Shown: one piece after another, positions 19,601 to 57,310 of the stretch
How the letters are laid out: every line of letters begins with the position of its first letter
Numbering within the stretch: position 1 is the first letter of the stretch
Source: Gemmatimonadaceae bacterium
GTDB taxonomy: Bacteria > Gemmatimonadota > Gemmatimonadetes > Gemmatimonadales > Gemmatimonadaceae
NCBI GenBank assembly: GCA_019694735.1
Contig: JAIBBJ010000024.1
Coordinates: forward strand, 1 to 64,000
Direction: 5' to 3'
DNA: 64,000 bases
The notes under the pieces: generated by a model
Told to the model about the DNA's origin: nothing
Databases searched by the model: none
Seen by the model: the letters and a program-made list of their open reading frames with translations, nothing else
Translations under genes and position numbers: made by a program

Positions 19601-22600
19601 TCAGTCCCCGCGCATCGCGACCATCGGGGCCGTGCGTCCGGCACGGCGTGCGGGGAGCGAGGACGCGGCGAGTCCGGCTGCCGCGACGGCAAGCGCGGCG
19701 GTACCCCAGACCGGTGGGTCCATCGGGTCGAGGCCGAAGAGCACGGAGGACATGTACCGCGTGAGGGCCCACCCGAGGGCCAGTCCGATGAGGAGGGCCG
19801 GTACGAGCAGCGCCCCGCCGCTCCGCAGCACGTCACGCGCGAGGCGCGCCGGCGGCGCGCCCAGCGCCGCTCGCAGGCCGAACTCACGGCGGCGCTGCTC
19901 CACCGTGTAGTGCAGCAGCCCGAAGAGCCCGGCGACCGCGAGGACCAGCGCGACCGTGGCGAGCGCGGAGAAGAGCGCGAAGACGAAGCGCGGCCACCCT
20001 ACGCTGGCCTGCATGACCTCCTGCATCGGGCGGACGCGCGCGATCGCGACACCCGGGTGAACCGCGCGCAAGGCGCGGTCGACCGCACCGGCGACCGCCA
20101 TCGGGTCGTCGCTCACCGTCCGGACGACCAGGTAGAGCCCGGTCGCTCCCGGCTGCCGCTGGGCGAAGGTCCAGTACGCCTCCGGTCGCGGGCGCTCGAC
20201 GGGTCCGAAGTTCCGGATGTCGCTCACCACTCCGATGATCTCCTGCGGCTCGTCGCCGATGAGGAACCGCTGGCCCAGCGGATCGCGGTCGCGGAAGTCC
20301 CGCGCGACGAGCGCCGCGTTGACCACCACCTTGGGTGGGCCGTCCGTCGCGACCATCTCGCGTGCGTCGGGAAGGCGACCGGCGAGCAGCCGCTGGCCGG
20401 TGGCAGCGAAGAATCCCGGCGTGATGTTGCGGGTCTCGACGAGCGGGCGCTGCGCGAGCGGCACGTCCGCACTCCCCTCGTAGCGCACCCACGCATTCCA
20501 GCCCCACTCCTGGTAGGGCAGTTGCGAGATGGCGCCGGCGGCGCGCACGCCCGGCAGCGCCGACACCGCCTCGAGTGCCGGCGCGAGGAACCGGTCGGCG
20601 GGCTCCCGGCCGGGGAAGTCGGTGGGGGAGACCCGCACGTGCAGCGTGAGCAGCCCGGCGGGCTCGAATCCCGGATCGCCGCGGATGATCCGCACGAAGC
20701 CCTTCAGCACGAGCCCCGCCGCGATCAGCAGTGCGAGCGCGAGGGCGCCCTCCGCCACGACGAGCGCACCGAGCGCGCGATGCTGATGGCGCCCGCCGGC
20801 GGCCTGCCCGCCCCGCAGCGCGTCGGCGGGGACCGTGCGCGCCGCCTGCCATGCCGGGGCGAGCGACCCCGCGAGCGCGGCGAGCAGCGAGACGCCGCCC
20901 GCGGCTGCGATCACGCGCAGGTCCACGCGCGCGTCCGCGAGCTGGACGATGCGCTCGGCACCGAGCAGGACGATGCCGCGCACCACCGCGATCGCGAGCG
21001 CGACGCCGAGTCCCCAGCCTCCGGCGGCGATGATCGCCGACTCGACGAGCACCGGCCGCATCACCTCCCATCGGGACGCGCCGAGGGCCGCGCGCACGGC
21101 GAGCTCCGCGCGTCGCCGGATGCCGCGCGCGAGCAGCAGGCTCGAGACGTTGAGCCCGGCGATGGCGAGGACCACGAGGGTGGAGACGAGGAGGAGCAGC
21201 AGCGGGGCGCGCAGCGTCACGCTCGCGTCGGCCGGCAGCGCGCGCACGTGGACGCTCGCGCCCTCCAGCGCCGGGAAGCGCTCGACGATCCCCGCGAAGC
21301 GTCGCTGGAGCGCCTGCTCGGCCGCCGCCGCGCTGACGCCCGGGGCCAGGCGGGCGACGGCGCGCAGGTAGTTGCTCGTGCGCGCCTCGCGATCGCGCGG
21401 CGTGAAGCGGATCGGCACCCAGAGGTCCCCATCGTAGATGCTCCCGGCGTTCGGGATCCGGAAGCGCGGCGGGAGGACCCCGACGATCTCGTGGGCGACG
21501 CCGTCGATCCGCAGCGGCGTGCCGATGACGCCCGGATTCGCGCCGAACTGCTCGCGCCAATAGTCGTGGCCGACGACGACGACGGGCGCGGAGCCGAGGT
21601 CGTCGTCGGCTGGCGTGAGGAGGCGACCGTGCTGCGCGGTCACGCCAAGCGTGCCGAACAGCGCGCCGGTGACGCGCACCGTGTGGACGGGCGCGATGCG
21701 GTCGCCGACGGCGACGAGCGACGAGGTGGAGGCGAAGGCGCCGAAGCCGGCCAGGGTGGGGTCCTCCGCGAGGTCGAGCGCATTCGGCGCGGAGTGCGGC
21801 TGGTCGAGCACGCCGCGCACGGAGCGGAAGACCGATACGAGGCGGTCCGGCTCGCGGAACGGCAGCGGCGCGAGCATCACGGCGTCCACGACGCTGAACA
21901 CGGATGCGACGCTCGCGATGCCGAGGGCGAGGCAGAGCAGGCAGGCCGAGAAGAGGGCGGGCGTGCGCGCGAGCGCGCGCCAGCCGTGGCGGAGCTCGCG
22001 GCGCAGCGCGCCCGCCGGATGGCCTCCGCCCGCTGCCGCCGACGCGCGGTCGCCGCCCGGTCCGGCCGCGAGCAGCGACGGGGAGGTCAGCACGCGGAGC
22101 AGCTCACGCGCGCCGGCCGGCCGCTCCGCCGGATCCTTCGCGAGGCAGCGCAGCAGCAGGGCTTCGAGGGCAGGGGGGACATCGGCGCGCCTGGTGCGGA
22201 TCGAGGGTGGTGCGTCCGACAGGTGCGCGCGGGCGAGCGCCGAGGGCGTGGCGCCATCGAACGGTGGCGCACCCGCGAGCAGCTCGTAGCCCACGACGCC
22301 GAGCGCATAGAGGTCCACGCGGTGGTCGGCGGCCGCGTCACCCGCGAACTGCTCCGGCGCCATGTAGCGCGGTGTCCCGAGCGAGTAGCCCTCGAGGGTG
22401 AGGTCGGTCGGCGTGCGCAGCGGGACGGGGCGGCCGGGGCCGCCGCGGCCCAGGGCCTTGGCGATCCCGAAGTCGGCGACGACCGCGGCGCGGCCGGTGA
22501 GGAGGATGTTGCCGGGCTTGATGTCGCGGTGGGCGACGCCGGCCGCATGCGCGCACTCGAGCGCCCGCGCGACGTCCGCGAGCACGGCGACCGCCTCGCG

Positions 22601-22948
22601 CACCGACAGCGGTCCGCGGCGCAGGCGGTCCGCGAGCGACTCGCCCCGCACGAGCGGCATCACGAAGTACGGCGTGTCGCCGACGGTGCCGGCGCTCAGG
22701 AGCGGGACGATGCCGGGATGCTGGAGCGTCGCGAGCACGGCGATCTCGCGCTCGAAGCGGTCGCGCGCCTCCCCGGTGGTCAGATGGCGCGCGATCCGCT
22801 TGATGACGACGCGCCGGTCGAGCTGGCGCTCGGTGCCGACGAGCAGCTCCGCCATGCCGCCGGCCCCGAGCGGTGCGAGGGCGTCGTAGCGGTCGGCGAG
22901 CGCCTCGGCGAAGGCGCGGAGTTCGACGTCGGCGATGGCGTGCGTCAT
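19601..22948 (-). CDS. Fusion of Ser/Thr protein kinase with MacB/FtsX-type (ADOP) permease
   Basis: A 1115-residue protein joining two families. Kinase domain, about 20-290: Gly loop LGAGGMAELLVG, K50 in VVIKRI, HRDIKPGN (140-147), DFG (159-161), APE (197-199) and a Thr-rich activation loop, so it should be active. From about 315 a permease of the 'acidobacterial duplicated orphan permease' type follows: a short juxtamembrane part (LRHGWRALARTP), TM1 about 333-358, a large MacB-like periplasmic domain (LDPSD-type ADDDLGSAPVVVVGHDYW and later VRVTG, WVPIRFTPRD), then further TM clusters and a second periplasmic domain, ending in a final TM group with RRREFGLRAALGAPP. No ATPase is encoded nearby. 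The fusion puts the kinase in the cytoplasm next to the permease. It starts at ATG 22948. Confidence 0.93.
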   Translation of the reverse strand: MTHAIADVELRAFAEALADRYDALAPLGAGGMAELLVGTERQLDRRVVIKRIARHLTTGEARDRFEREIAVLATLQHPGIVPLLSAGTVGDTPYFVMPLVRGESLADRLRRGPLSVREAVAVLADVARALECAHAAGVAHRDIKPGNILLTGRAAVVADFGIAKALGRGGPGRPVPLRTPTDLTLEGYSLGTPRYMAPEQFAGDAAADHRVDLYALGVVGYELLAGAPPFDGATPSALARAHLSDAPPSIRTRRADVPPALEALLLRCLAKDPAERPAGARELLRVLTSPSLLAAGPGGDRASAAAGGGHPAGALRRELRHGWRALARTPALFSACLLCLALGIASVASVFSVVDAVMLAPLPFREPDRLVSVFRSVRGVLDQPHSAPNALDLAEDPTLAGFGAFASTSSLVAVGDRIAPVHTVRVTGALFGTLGVTAQHGRLLTPADDDLGSAPVVVVGHDYWREQFGANPGVIGTPLRIDGVAHEIVGVLPPRFRIPNAGSIYDGDLWVPIRFTPRDREARTSNYLRAVARLAPGVSAAAAEQALQRRFAGIVERFPALEGASVHVRALPADASVTLRAPLLLLLVSTLVVLAIAGLNVSSLLLARGIRRRAELAVRAALGASRWEVMRPVLVESAIIAAGGWGLGVALAIAVVRGIVLLGAERIVQLADARVDLRVIAAAGGVSLLAALAGSLAPAWQAARTVPADALRGGQAAGGRHQHRALGALVVAEGALALALLIAAGLVLKGFVRIIRGDPGFEPAGLLTLHVRVSPTDFPGREPADRFLAPALEAVSALPGVRAAGAISQLPYQEWGWNAWVRYEGSADVPLAQRPLVETRNITPGFFAATGQRLLAGRLPDAREMVATDGPPKVVVNAALVARDFRDRDPLGQRFLIGDEPQEIIGVVSDIRNFGPVERPRPEAYWTFAQRQPGATGLYLVVRTVSDDPMAVAGAVDRALRAVHPGVAIARVRPMQEVMQASVGWPRFVFALFSALATVALVLAVAGLFGLLHYTVEQRRREFGLRAALGAPPARLARDVLRSGGALLVPALLIGLALGWALTRYMSSVLFGLDPMDPPVWGTAALAVAAAGLAASSLPARRAGRTAPMVAMRGD

Positions 22949-25347: not shown

Positions 25348-25367
25348 GCCGGTGACGGGGGATGTGT

Positions 25368-25405
25368 CGGAAGGGGGCGCGGCCAGGTGGCCGCGCCCCC
25401 TTCCG
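25368..25405. terminator. Strong hairpin terminator after gltA
   Basis: A perfect 17-bp stem (25368-25384 with 25389-25405) with a 4-base AGGT loop, followed on the plus strand by ATTT. It lies 20 bases after the gltA stop and before the next plus-strand gene. Confidence 0.8.
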
Positions 25406-25457
25406 ATTTCCCGGTCCGCCGGCCACCGTGCGGCATGGGCTCCGTCCAGACCCGACC

Positions 25458-26924
25458 GTGACGAGCTCCGCTGGCGGCCGCTGCGCCGTGGCGGCGCTGG
25501 TCCTGGCCGTTGCCGTGGCCCCCGCCCTCGCTGCCCAGGAGGTCGCTGGGCGCCTGCTCCGCGAGGACGGCGTGACGCCGGCGTCCGGCGTGCTCGTGCG
25601 AGTCGTGCGCGCGTCGGACGGGCGCACGGTCACCACCGTCACCACCTCGGCCACCGGCGAGTACCGTGCAGCGGTGGGCGTGGACTCGGTGCGGCTGTTC
25701 GCGCTCCGCGTCGGCATGCGTCCCGTCGAGCTCGGTGCGCTTCGCCTGCGGACCGGTGAGCGCCGCGAGCTGGCGGGCGTGCTAGCGTCCGAGGTGTTCG
25801 AACTGCCGGCCGTCCGGTCGCGCGCGCGGGACCGCTGCGGGCCGCGCGAGGGGCCCGAGGCGCGCCTCGCCGCGAGCGCCTTCGAGCAGGCGCGAACCGC
25901 GCTCGAGCTCGTCCGCGCCGCGGGAGGCGACACCACGCGGCGCGCGCGTGTGCGCACGGTCCGCACCCGCTGGTCCGCAGGAGAGGAGCGCGTGCTCGAG
26001 GTGCGCCGGCGCGAGGTCGAGACCGGTCGCCTGGAGCTCGCGTTCACCCCTGCCGACACGCTGTACGACAGCGGCTTCGTGAGGCAGGCCCGCGACGGCA
26101 CGACCACCTATCGCGCACCCGGCCTCGACTTCTTCATCCATCCCCGATTCCTCGAGGAGCATTGCATCGTCCTCGTCGGTTCGCCCGACGGTGACGAGAC
26201 CCGCGTCGGCATCGGGTACCGACCGTCACGGACGCGTCGCGGCGTCGTGCAGGTCGAGGGCGTGCTGTGGCTGCAGCGCGCTGGCGCGGAGCTCGAGCGC
26301 GTGGAATTCGCATATGCCGGCCTGCCGGGTCTCGAGACGTCGGTCCGGCCCGGGGGATGGCTCGAGTTCGTCGCGCTCGCGAGCGATCGGTGGGCGCTGG
26401 TGCGGTGGGAGATCCGGATGCCTCGCGTCGGCGAGGCGCTCGTGCTGTCGCGGCGCCGCTCCGACGACGTCCTGTTCCGGGAGATCACCGAGGTCGCGAC
26501 CACCGCGGGGGAGGTGCTCGAGATCACGGGTGCCACCGGCCTCGACTTCTCCGCCGCGGCCATCGACTCCGTGGACGCGGATGGTGCGCTGGTGCTGCAC
26601 GCCGATCATCCTCCTCCGTCAGCCGCGCCCTGCGAGGCGACGGACGGACAGGCCTTGCTGCATGGACGCGTGGAGATCCTGCGGTCCGGGGACTGGGCGC
26701 CCGGCACGGGTGTCCTGTCGTGGCGCCGGCCACATGATGCCGCCGATCGAGGGGAGGTCCCGCTCGCGGGGGACGGGCGATTCCGGATGTGTGGCGTGCC
26801 GACCGGCCTTCCCATACGGATCGCGCTGCGGACCGGGGATGGCGGTGTCGCCGTGCTCATGGTGCGCGTCCCACGCGAGCGGACCGTGGGGCGGCTCGTC
26901 CTGCGGTTCAGCGCGGAGGAGTAG
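25458..26924 (+). CDS. Secreted protein with carboxypeptidase-regulatory-like domain
   Basis: A 488-residue exported protein. A signal peptide covers about residues 1-27 (VAALVLAVAVAPALAAQ). Residues about 28-105 form a carboxypeptidase-D regulatory-like beta-sandwich: VAGRLLREDGVTPASGVLVRVVRASDGRTVTTVTTSATGEYR. The remainder is a long Arg/Glu-rich beta-rich region with no recognised family, and the C-terminal 90 residues again look like a transthyretin-type sandwich (LHGRVEILRS ... GEVPLAGDGRFRMCGVPTGLPIRIAL). Such domains often sit in surface or TonB-linked proteins of Bacteroidetes and Gemmatimonadota. No barrel is present here. The GTG at 25458 directly precedes the signal peptide. The gene stands alone after the gltA terminator. 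Confidence 0.8.
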   Translation: MTSSAGGRCAVAALVLAVAVAPALAAQEVAGRLLREDGVTPASGVLVRVVRASDGRTVTTVTTSATGEYRAAVGVDSVRLFALRVGMRPVELGALRLRTGERRELAGVLASEVFELPAVRSRARDRCGPREGPEARLAASAFEQARTALELVRAAGGDTTRRARVRTVRTRWSAGEERVLEVRRREVETGRLELAFTPADTLYDSGFVRQARDGTTTYRAPGLDFFIHPRFLEEHCIVLVGSPDGDETRVGIGYRPSRTRRGVVQVEGVLWLQRAGAELERVEFAYAGLPGLETSVRPGGWLEFVALASDRWALVRWEIRMPRVGEALVLSRRRSDDVLFREITEVATTAGEVLEITGATGLDFSAAAIDSVDADGALVLHADHPPPSAAPCEATDGQALLHGRVEILRSGDWAPGTGVLSWRRPHDAADRGEVPLAGDGRFRMCGVPTGLPIRIALRTGDGGVAVLMVRVPRERTVGRLVLRFSAEE

Positions 26925-55226: not shown

Positions 55227-56228
55227 CTAACGCGGTCCGGTCGACCCCTCCGGAAGGGTGGAGACCGCCCCGGTGGCCCGGGTGGACGGGCGGTAGGTCT
55301 CGGGGAAGAGCTCCGCGAGATGCGCCTGGAGCCGCTCCGGGGAGCCCGGCGTCCCGCGGGCCGCGCACCACTCGTCGAGCCGGCGCCCGAGCAGGGCGGC
55401 CGATGGGCGCTCGGCGGGGCCCTTGGCGATCGCGTCCGAGATCATGGCCTGGATGCCGGGGTCCGCGTCCGGGAGCCGGAGCGACAGGTCCGGACTCGGG
55501 CCGAGCACGACCTCATCGAACGCCGCCATCGTCTCGTCCTCCGTGAAGAGGGAGCGAAGGGCGAAGAGCTCGAACAGGACCACGCCCATCGAGAAGACGT
55601 CGGAGCGGGCATCGAGGTCCGAGCCCATGAGCTGCTCGGGGCTCATGTAGTGCTTCTTCCCCAGCAGCACCTGCCGGTTGGCGGAGGGGTCGACCATGGT
55701 GCGCGCCTTCGCGATGCCGAAGTCGCCGAGCTTCACGTGGCCGTCCCAGGTGAGCATCACATTCCCCGGGGAGACGTCGCGGTGCACGATGTCGAGCCGG
55801 TGGCCGCCCTCATCCACGAAGTGGTGGGCGAAGTCGAGGGCGCGGCAGACGCGGCTGGCGCAGTACGCGGCGACGTCGGGTGGCATGGGCAGGCGCCGCG
55901 CGCGGTGCGTGTTGATCAGCGTCCGGAGCGAGATGCCCTTGATCAGCTCCATGGCGATGAAGAGCGTCCCCTCGTGGTCGCCGAGCTGGTAGATCTGGAC
56001 GATGTTGCCGTGCACCAGGTTGGCGGAGAGCTTGGCCTCGTCGATGAAGAGCTGGCGCCACTCGGGGTGCCGGGCGAATCGCTCGTGGATGATCTTCAGC
56101 GCCATCCGCTTGGTGAACCCGGCGGAGCCGATCTGCTCGGCCTCGTGCACGGTGGCCATCCCGCCCCGCGCGATCTCGCGGAGCAGGCGGAAGCGGCTGA
56201 CGACGAGCAATTCCTGTCCGGGTCCCAT
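55227..56228 (-). CDS. Soluble Ser/Thr protein kinase
   Basis: A 333-residue Hanks-type kinase. Gly loop ARGGMATVHEA, K45 in MALKII, D151 in IVHRDVSPGNVML (HRDVSPGN, typical of myxobacterial/PknB-like kinases), D169 in LGDFGIAK, and MSPEQL. No TM helix, PASTA or TPR domain is attached; after the kinase domain only about 50 residues of Pro/Ser-rich tail follow. It probably signals in the cytoplasm. It diverges from the reductase gene across 62 bases. A second, membrane-bound kinase is encoded at 19601-22948. Confidence 0.94.
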   Translation of the reverse strand: MGPGQELLVVSRFRLLREIARGGMATVHEAEQIGSAGFTKRMALKIIHERFARHPEWRQLFIDEAKLSANLVHGNIVQIYQLGDHEGTLFIAMELIKGISLRTLINTHRARRLPMPPDVAAYCASRVCRALDFAHHFVDEGGHRLDIVHRDVSPGNVMLTWDGHVKLGDFGIAKARTMVDPSANRQVLLGKKHYMSPEQLMGSDLDARSDVFSMGVVLFELFALRSLFTEDETMAAFDEVVLGPSPDLSLRLPDADPGIQAMISDAIAKGPAERPSAALLGRRLDEWCAARGTPGSPERLQAHLAELFPETYRPSTRATGAVSTLPEGSTGPR

Positions 56229-56290
56229 GGCGTGCGGTGGTGAGGGTGGGGGCCGTTGTCCAGCGGCCGGGCGAGGGTGATTTTTATAGG

Positions 56291-57310
56291 ATGCGAACCC
56301 ACGAACTCCGCGATCTCTCCATTATCGGCGCGGGACCGGCCGGACTTTTCTCCCTGTTCTACGCAGGCATGCGCGGCGCGACCGCGCAAGTCATCGACGC
56401 CCTCCCGGAGCCGGGTGGCCAGCTGGCCGCGCTCTACCCCGAGAAGCTGATCTTCGACGTGGCCGGCTTCCCCCGTGTGCTGGCCAAGGACCTGGTGGCG
56501 AACCTGCGCCAGCAGGCCGGCCAGTTCGGGCAGCCCATCCACTGCGGCCAGCGGGTGGTGGGGCTGGAGGAGGCGGACGGCGTCTTCACCCTAGTGACCG
56601 AGACCGACCGCTTCCCGTCACGAGCGGTGATCATCGCCGCCGGGATCGGTGCCTTCGCGCCGCGTAAACTGCCGCAGGCGTGTGCGGAGCCCTGGTACGG
56701 CCGCGGGATCGACCCCGTGGTCCGGTCGCCGCAGGACTACGCCGGCAAGCACGTGGTGATCATCGGCGGCGGCGACTCGGCGTTCGACTGGGCGCACCAG
56801 CTCGAGGGGGTGGCCCGGAGCATCCGGCTGGTGCATCGGTCGGACCGGTTCCGGGCGCACCAGGCGACGGTCGACCAGGTCCTCGCGTCGGCGGCGGCGG
56901 GCCGGAGCGCCGTCCACACCTTCCACGAGCTCGCCGACGTGGTCGCCGAGGGCGACCGGCTGGTGGCGCTCGACCTGAAGGACATCAAGGCGAAGACGAC
57001 CACGCGGGTGCCGTGCGACGTGGTGCTGCCGATGCTCGGCTTCGTCTCCGACATGGGCGCGCTGCTCGACTGGGGGCTGACGGTCGAGAAGGACGAGATC
57101 CACGTCTCGCAGACCATGGAGACCGGCCGGCCGGGCCTCTGGGCGGTCGGCGACGTGAACACCTATCCGGGGAAGCTGAAGCTGATCGCGACCGGGTTCG
57201 CGGAGGCGTGCATCGCGGTGAACCAGGCCGTGCACTGGGTGTATCCGGACAAGAAGGTGAATCCGGGCCACTCCTCCAACCTGGCCGTCTTCGGGCAGAA
57301 GGACGACTGA
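56291..57310 (+). CDS. Ferredoxin/flavodoxin-NADP+ reductase-like flavoprotein (YumC type)
   Basis: A 339-residue thioredoxin-reductase-like flavoprotein without the redox CxxC. N-terminal FAD motif LSIIGAGPAGLFSLFYAGMRG, EPGGQLAALYPEKLIFDVAGFP, a second nucleotide-binding motif VVIIGGGDSAFDWAHQL for NADPH, and the C-terminal ETGRPGLWAVGDVNTYPGKLKLIATGFAEACIAVN. That pattern fits the YumC/FNR2 group, which reduces ferredoxin or flavodoxin with NADPH. The start is ATG 56291, only a few bases after an AT-rich TTTTTATAGG, so the Shine-Dalgarno is atypical (AGG touching ATG). The next gene starts 5 bases after its stop, a tight spacing with the TamA-like gene although the functions look unrelated. 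Confidence 0.92.
   Translation: MRTHELRDLSIIGAGPAGLFSLFYAGMRGATAQVIDALPEPGGQLAALYPEKLIFDVAGFPRVLAKDLVANLRQQAGQFGQPIHCGQRVVGLEEADGVFTLVTETDRFPSRAVIIAAGIGAFAPRKLPQACAEPWYGRGIDPVVRSPQDYAGKHVVIIGGGDSAFDWAHQLEGVARSIRLVHRSDRFRAHQATVDQVLASAAAGRSAVHTFHELADVVAEGDRLVALDLKDIKAKTTTRVPCDVVLPMLGFVSDMGALLDWGLTVEKDEIHVSQTMETGRPGLWAVGDVNTYPGKLKLIATGFAEACIAVNQAVHWVYPDKKVNPGHSSNLAVFGQKDD

Follow-up and report, generated by a model that had tools for sequence, protein, structure and literature searches.

A Hanks-type Ser/Thr kinase joined to a complete ADOP permease in Gemmatimonadaceae: a candidate membrane receptor kinase

What does a protein kinase do in one chain with an orphan permease that has no ABC ATPase nearby? 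This question is raised by one gene in the window (the whole 64,000-nucleotide stretch of Gemmatimonadaceae DNA analysed here). A first-pass annotation had described it as a kinase followed in the same frame by a duplicated permease, and the frame, Pfam and NCBIfam analyses agree exactly with its coordinates, strand and single frame. It runs without interruption from its ATG to the stop codon, giving a protein of 1115 residues in which the kinase (residues 17-288) comes first, followed by a brief disordered linker and the entire ADOP permease (residues 315-1114). The AlphaFold2 model (mean pLDDT 91) consists of the kinase, a disordered segment (297-308), a helix (311-327), eight long membrane helices and two periplasmic domains (Table 1). 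When the whole chain was searched with Foldseek, YbbP of E. coli was the top match (9ge6_A, E 1.1e-18), followed by structures of PknB and MacB.

Table 1. Position of the fusion gene in the window and of the parts of its protein
Feature	Coordinates	Strand	Residues	Basis or remark
Kinase-ADOP fusion gene	19601..22948	-		1115 codons + stop; orthologous frames in L018, L019, L099
PknB-like Ser/Thr kinase domain	22085..22900	-	17-288	Pfam PF00069, PknB structures, catalytic residues
Variable linker	22019..22084	-	289-310	Disordered 297-308; pN/pS, pLDDT under 50
Helix 311-327	21968..22018	-	311-327	Directly ahead of TM1; ADOP model starts here; NCBIfam and AlphaFold2 model
TM1	21872..21961	-	330-359	
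Periplasmic MacB-type domain no. 1	21221..21871	-	360-576	MacB_PCD and model
TM2-TM4	20816..21220	-	577-711	
Coupling helix no. 1	21086..21112	-	613-621	Motif ELAVRAALGASR; separate helix in model
TM5	20681..20794	-	719-756	
Periplasmic MacB-type domain no. 2	20003..20680	-	757-982	Pfam and model
TM6-TM8	19637..19999	-	984-1104	
Coupling helix no. 2	19865..19891	-	1020-1028	Motif REFGLRAALGA; ADOP and MacB alignments, model

The fused frame in relatives

The rarity of the architecture and the draft state of the genome (226 contigs) could point to an assembly or frameshift artefact. However, an uninterrupted frame of the same type was found in five other Gemmatimonadaceae proteins (L018, L019, G070, G017 and G154), two of them at the same locus. 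Identity to the window protein is 64% in L018, 62% in L019, 59% in G070 and 44% in G017, while G154 carries a kinase-ADOP fusion with a different permease. L018 keeps the fusion together with citrate synthase, a TauE-type protein and a PLP-dependent decarboxylase; in G070 the synteny is partial (citrate synthase, TauE and the fusion), with an IS481-type element just downstream. Separately deposited assemblies thus contain the same fusion, and further fusions occur in two phyla. Based on the fused frames in relatives and the synteny, we reject the artefact reading, whose probability we consider negligible.

Separate genes in close relatives, named in the first-pass annotation as evidence that would speak against a true fusion, were also looked for, and the close relatives have the same fusion. 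Within the stretches examined around the unfused sister permeases, no kinase match was found beside them. The permeases most closely related to that of the window protein lack a kinase; the two of them that were scanned also lack the N-terminal domain perm_prefix_1.

The neighbours at the locus are 77-93% identical, whereas the fusion is only about 60-64% identical and therefore evolves fast. No conserved partner gene was recognised at the fusion locus among the relatives compared. Among the neighbouring frames that were scanned, a subset of those present (TauE, the decarboxylase and a CarboxypepD_reg-like protein), there was no PadR. Two relatives that share the locus carry a free-standing Ser/Thr kinase gene beside citrate synthase (L018:2046-3686 (-) and L131:3960-5504 (-)); the matching place in the window holds a different gene (25362-26924).

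Kinase and permease parts of the protein

The Pfam Pkinase model matched residues 23-284 with 142.7 bits, and the glycine loop (LGAGGM), K50, E68, HRDIKPGN, DFG, APE, D212 and R276 were all found. In a structural search, whose list is filled by the kinase domain and leaves the permease unaddressed, the kinase part matched PknB of M. tuberculosis with Z 33.1 and an rmsd of 1.7 over 256 residues. The complete Hanks kinase reported in the first pass is thus borne out in its motifs, and by motifs and predicted fold it would be classed as Hanks-type and PknB-like. The six proteins of its kinase clade (F1, described below) all share K50, E68, HRD, DFG, D212 and R276; the APE motif reads SPE in some of them, and the glycine loop is variable, with a degenerate form in L100. 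The model for PASTA kinases (NF033483) reached 240 bits against a cut-off of 450, over the kinase part only, and PASTA repeats were absent in the Pfam scan. Matches of PADLOC models to the window protein (PD-T4-6 and others) were dismissed as generic, being confined to the kinase domain. A second Ser/Thr kinase in the window (55230-56321 (-)) has the catalytic loop HRDVSPGN instead of HRDxKxxN.

The NCBIfam ADOP model TIGR03434 matched residues 315-1114 with 690 bits (cut-off 622.3), covering positions 1-802 of its 803. As in the ADOP family, where each chain has two FtsX/MacB_PCD units, Pfam MacB_PCD and FtsX each matched two stretches of the protein. Both coupling helices lie at the position of the MacB coupling helix and align in sequence with its segment REIGIRMAVGA, so that fold and coupling helices place the permease with type VII (MacB/YbbP). 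The motif of the first helix is kept in 56 ADOPs. It says little about the fusion specifically, because unfused permeases carry it as well.

The genome has 41 matches to ABC ATPases (ABC_tran), but the 88.6-kb contig holds none of them, in agreement with the earlier remark that no ATPase is encoded nearby. The permease could nevertheless work as a type VII-like mechanotransmitter driven by an ATPase whose gene lies elsewhere, with the fused kinase phosphorylating either the permease or the docked ATPase. The MacB-type motif in both coupling helices, the 41 candidate ATPases and the resemblance to YbbP, which works with the ATPase YbbA (PMC12646458), are all consistent with this. On the other hand, the contig has no ATPase and unfused permeases share the coupling motif. 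We regard this reading as a whole as unlikely, yet as an alternative that has to be kept in mind. Phosphorylation of a partner ATPase, which the first pass had also suggested, may thus still apply.

Within the fusion, constraint is strongest on the kinase (pN/pS 0.28-0.48; all pN/pS values here are approximate because synonymous sites are near saturation). In residues 289-320, which include the linker, pN/pS was about 0.8-1.4, and no constraint on the sequence was detectable. This bears on a second idea, namely that the kinase stands in for the absent ATPase and energises or drives the permease; the first pass had suggested that it might drive events through the periplasmic domains. MacB's own ATPase domain sits N-terminally, and the kinase would be an ATP-using cytoplasmic domain at that same position on an orphan permease. 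The data do not fit well with such a role: the linker is unconstrained and predicted to be disordered, both MacB-type helices that dock the ATPase are retained unchanged, and a single kinase would face two docking sites. Moreover, no fusion-specific Ser/Thr residues were found on the cytoplasmic face of the permease, and we know of no type VII permease that is driven by a kinase. We therefore consider direct driving very improbable, and this half of the earlier proposal was not upheld.

Alternatively, the permease might have lost its own function and serve as a mere membrane anchor with a signal-free periplasmic part. Among the folded parts, constraint is indeed weakest on the first periplasmic unit. 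However, purifying selection acts on every part of the permease (pN/pS 0.38-0.70), the match to the ADOP model is complete, and different kinases have been joined to whole ADOPs and not to simple anchors. An anchor-only role is thus improbable in our opinion.

A survey of kinase-ADOP fusions

The first-pass annotation had called for a survey of such fusions across Acidobacteriota and Gemmatimonadota. We searched 148 Gemmatimonadaceae genomes, 150 and 200 Gemmatimonadota genomes and 149 and 247 Acidobacteriota genomes, together with nine genomes reached through loci and a scan of genome contigs. In total 23 distinct fusions were found. Their kinases belong to two clades, F1 with six fusions, each of them from Gemmatimonadaceae, and F2 with 17, which come from both Gemmatimonadota and Acidobacteriota. 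Fusions were present in at least 5/148 Gemmatimonadaceae, at least 8/150 Gemmatimonadota and at least 3/149 Acidobacteriota genomes; these counts are lower bounds because the top few candidates per genome were scored.

The F1 proteins have the kinase-permease architecture of the window protein, whereas the F2 proteins (L115, L128, L159, L160, L162, L167, L185-L187, L204-L206, L246, L259 and L262-L264) are built as HTH-kinase-permease. Their N-terminus is a Cro/C1-type HTH, for which Pfam HTH_31 scored above the cut-off in one protein and below it in others. F2 kinases have HCD in place of HRD in the catalytic loop, and given this difference F1 and F2 may be regulated differently. We found 18 HTH-kinase modules, and in 17 of them the chain continues into an ADOP. 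The only one seen without it, L256 (G435:C1:1853985-1855013), has a frame that stops shortly past a masked run of N. At least seven HTH-kinase-ADOP proteins are encoded in one genome (G223). In another (G235:C92, L207:3818-9951) such a fusion adjoins, on the same strand, an unfused ADOP of the permease clade of the window protein. In the Acidobacteriota fusion L187 (G253:C1:1423105-1426269) one TAA interrupts the match near the C-terminal end, which is either a recent break or a sequencing error.

In the kinase tree F1 (100/94) and F2 (100/100) formed separate clades, although the bootstrap was not fully settled. On this ground we rejected a common origin for all the fusions. In the permease trees neither the F1 nor the F2 permeases formed a single clade, the F2 result coming from a FastTree tree with long branches. 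In AU tests, a single clade of F1 permeases was rejected when L154 was included (p = 2e-9), but not when only L100 was added (p = 0.077); in the case of L100, one origin followed by losses may be the explanation instead. Because the kinase clades are monophyletic while their permeases are not, kinase modules have probably been joined to different ADOPs more than once. Judged from the trees, the joins have at least two separate origins, and they occur in two phyla.

The receptor-kinase reading and known systems

Some ordinary ADOPs (L117, L124 and L127) have perm_prefix_1 at about residues 14-72, immediately ahead of the ADOP model. In the window protein perm_prefix_1 (NF038403) gave no match, and none was reported in the fused proteins examined, in which the kinase occupies this N-terminal slot. 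We infer that perm_prefix_1 is the published HAAS signalling domain, which always lies in gene neighbourhoods with a PadR-like regulator and is found fused to FtsX/MacB_PCD proteins, among others (PMC11237479). HAAS has been proposed to signal to PadR regulators, as an alternative to two-component signalling (PMC11237479).

Our best reading, to which we give a probability of about 0.5, is that the window protein is a membrane receptor kinase with the ADOP part as periplasmic sensor. The two periplasmic MacB-type domains, borne on an eight-helix pseudo-dimeric permease of YbbP/MacB type, would sense a condition of the envelope or the extracellular space. The PknB-like kinase is tethered at the N-terminus, on the cytoplasmic side; a change in the membrane part would alter how active or how clustered it is, and it would then phosphorylate soluble targets. 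Since the variable linker makes tight mechanical coupling unlikely, the signal would pass by clustering or direct contact.

Several observations favour the receptor kinase. The kinase sits in the perm_prefix_1 slot, it is intact and under stronger constraint than any other part, and a second kinase lineage, F2, adds an HTH and is nearly exclusively paired with ADOPs. The pairing, moreover, probably arose repeatedly. By analogy, Bce modules provide a precedent, as their separate sensor kinase is under the control of a permease that is likewise broadly of type VII (PMC10314905). Against the receptor kinase count the failure to recognise a conserved neighbour gene and the retained coupling helices, which leave room for an ATPase in trans. 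Sensing through the periplasmic domains had been offered in the first pass together with driving of the permease, and it is the better-supported half: the kinase in the slot of a putative signalling domain and the DNA-binding HTH of F2 both point to a signalling role.

The recurrent joins suggest that orphan permeases act as sensors that relay outside signals inward. To our knowledge no ADOP has an assigned function, and the families are large, with tens of strong matches in single Acidobacteriota genomes. We tentatively extend the idea to the whole class, without giving it even odds: ADOPs might be ATPase-free periplasmic sensors rather than transporters, with exchangeable cytoplasmic outputs, namely HAAS-type for PadR, a Ser/Thr kinase in F1, and an HTH with a kinase in F2, whose proteins would then be putative transcription factors that sit in the membrane and carry a kinase of their own. 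A fused kinase that can be assayed would provide a direct read-out on ADOPs: dependence of its activity on the periplasmic domains would make the sensor role testable.

Kinase and permease are each known already, as is the notion that MacB-type proteins can bear signalling domains. In the open-access papers that we searched, with most subscription papers outside their scope, neither the fusion of a Ser/Thr kinase with an ADOP or MacB-type permease nor the HTH-kinase-permease form was found to be described. Such fusions probably sit in sequence databases under automatic names. If the receptor reading is true, they would represent a new receptor type among bacterial Ser/Thr kinases.

Compared with known systems, the protein resembles the ADOP family through its complete match to TIGR03434 above the curated cut-off. 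The ADOP model has no kinase, however, and the ordinary members examined have perm_prefix_1 or no N-terminal domain where the window protein has a kinase. It shares the structural likeness to YbbP (of YbbAP-TesA) and then MacB, both type VII ABC systems, and with MacB also the coupling-helix motif. These systems have an ATPase (YbbA or MacB's own domain) and no kinase, whereas the window gene has a kinase and no ATPase nearby. With PknB-type receptor Ser/Thr kinases it has in common the kinase fold and motifs, and a cytoplasmic kinase joined to a membrane part and an outside part; PknB, in contrast, has one membrane helix and PASTA repeats instead of eight membrane helices and two MacB-type periplasmic domains. 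The likeness to Bce modules (BceAB-BceS; PMC10314905) is a functional analogy only, that of a permease-controlled kinase. The window protein is not a Bce module, as its Ser/Thr kinase is Hanks-type and lies in the same chain and its contig lacks an ABC ATPase, whereas Bce systems use a separate histidine kinase and a dedicated ATPase. Finally, like HAAS-PadR proteins with FtsX/MacB_PCD (PMC11237479), it has an N-terminal cytoplasmic domain of putative signalling function before a MacB-type membrane part, but this domain is a kinase in place of HAAS.
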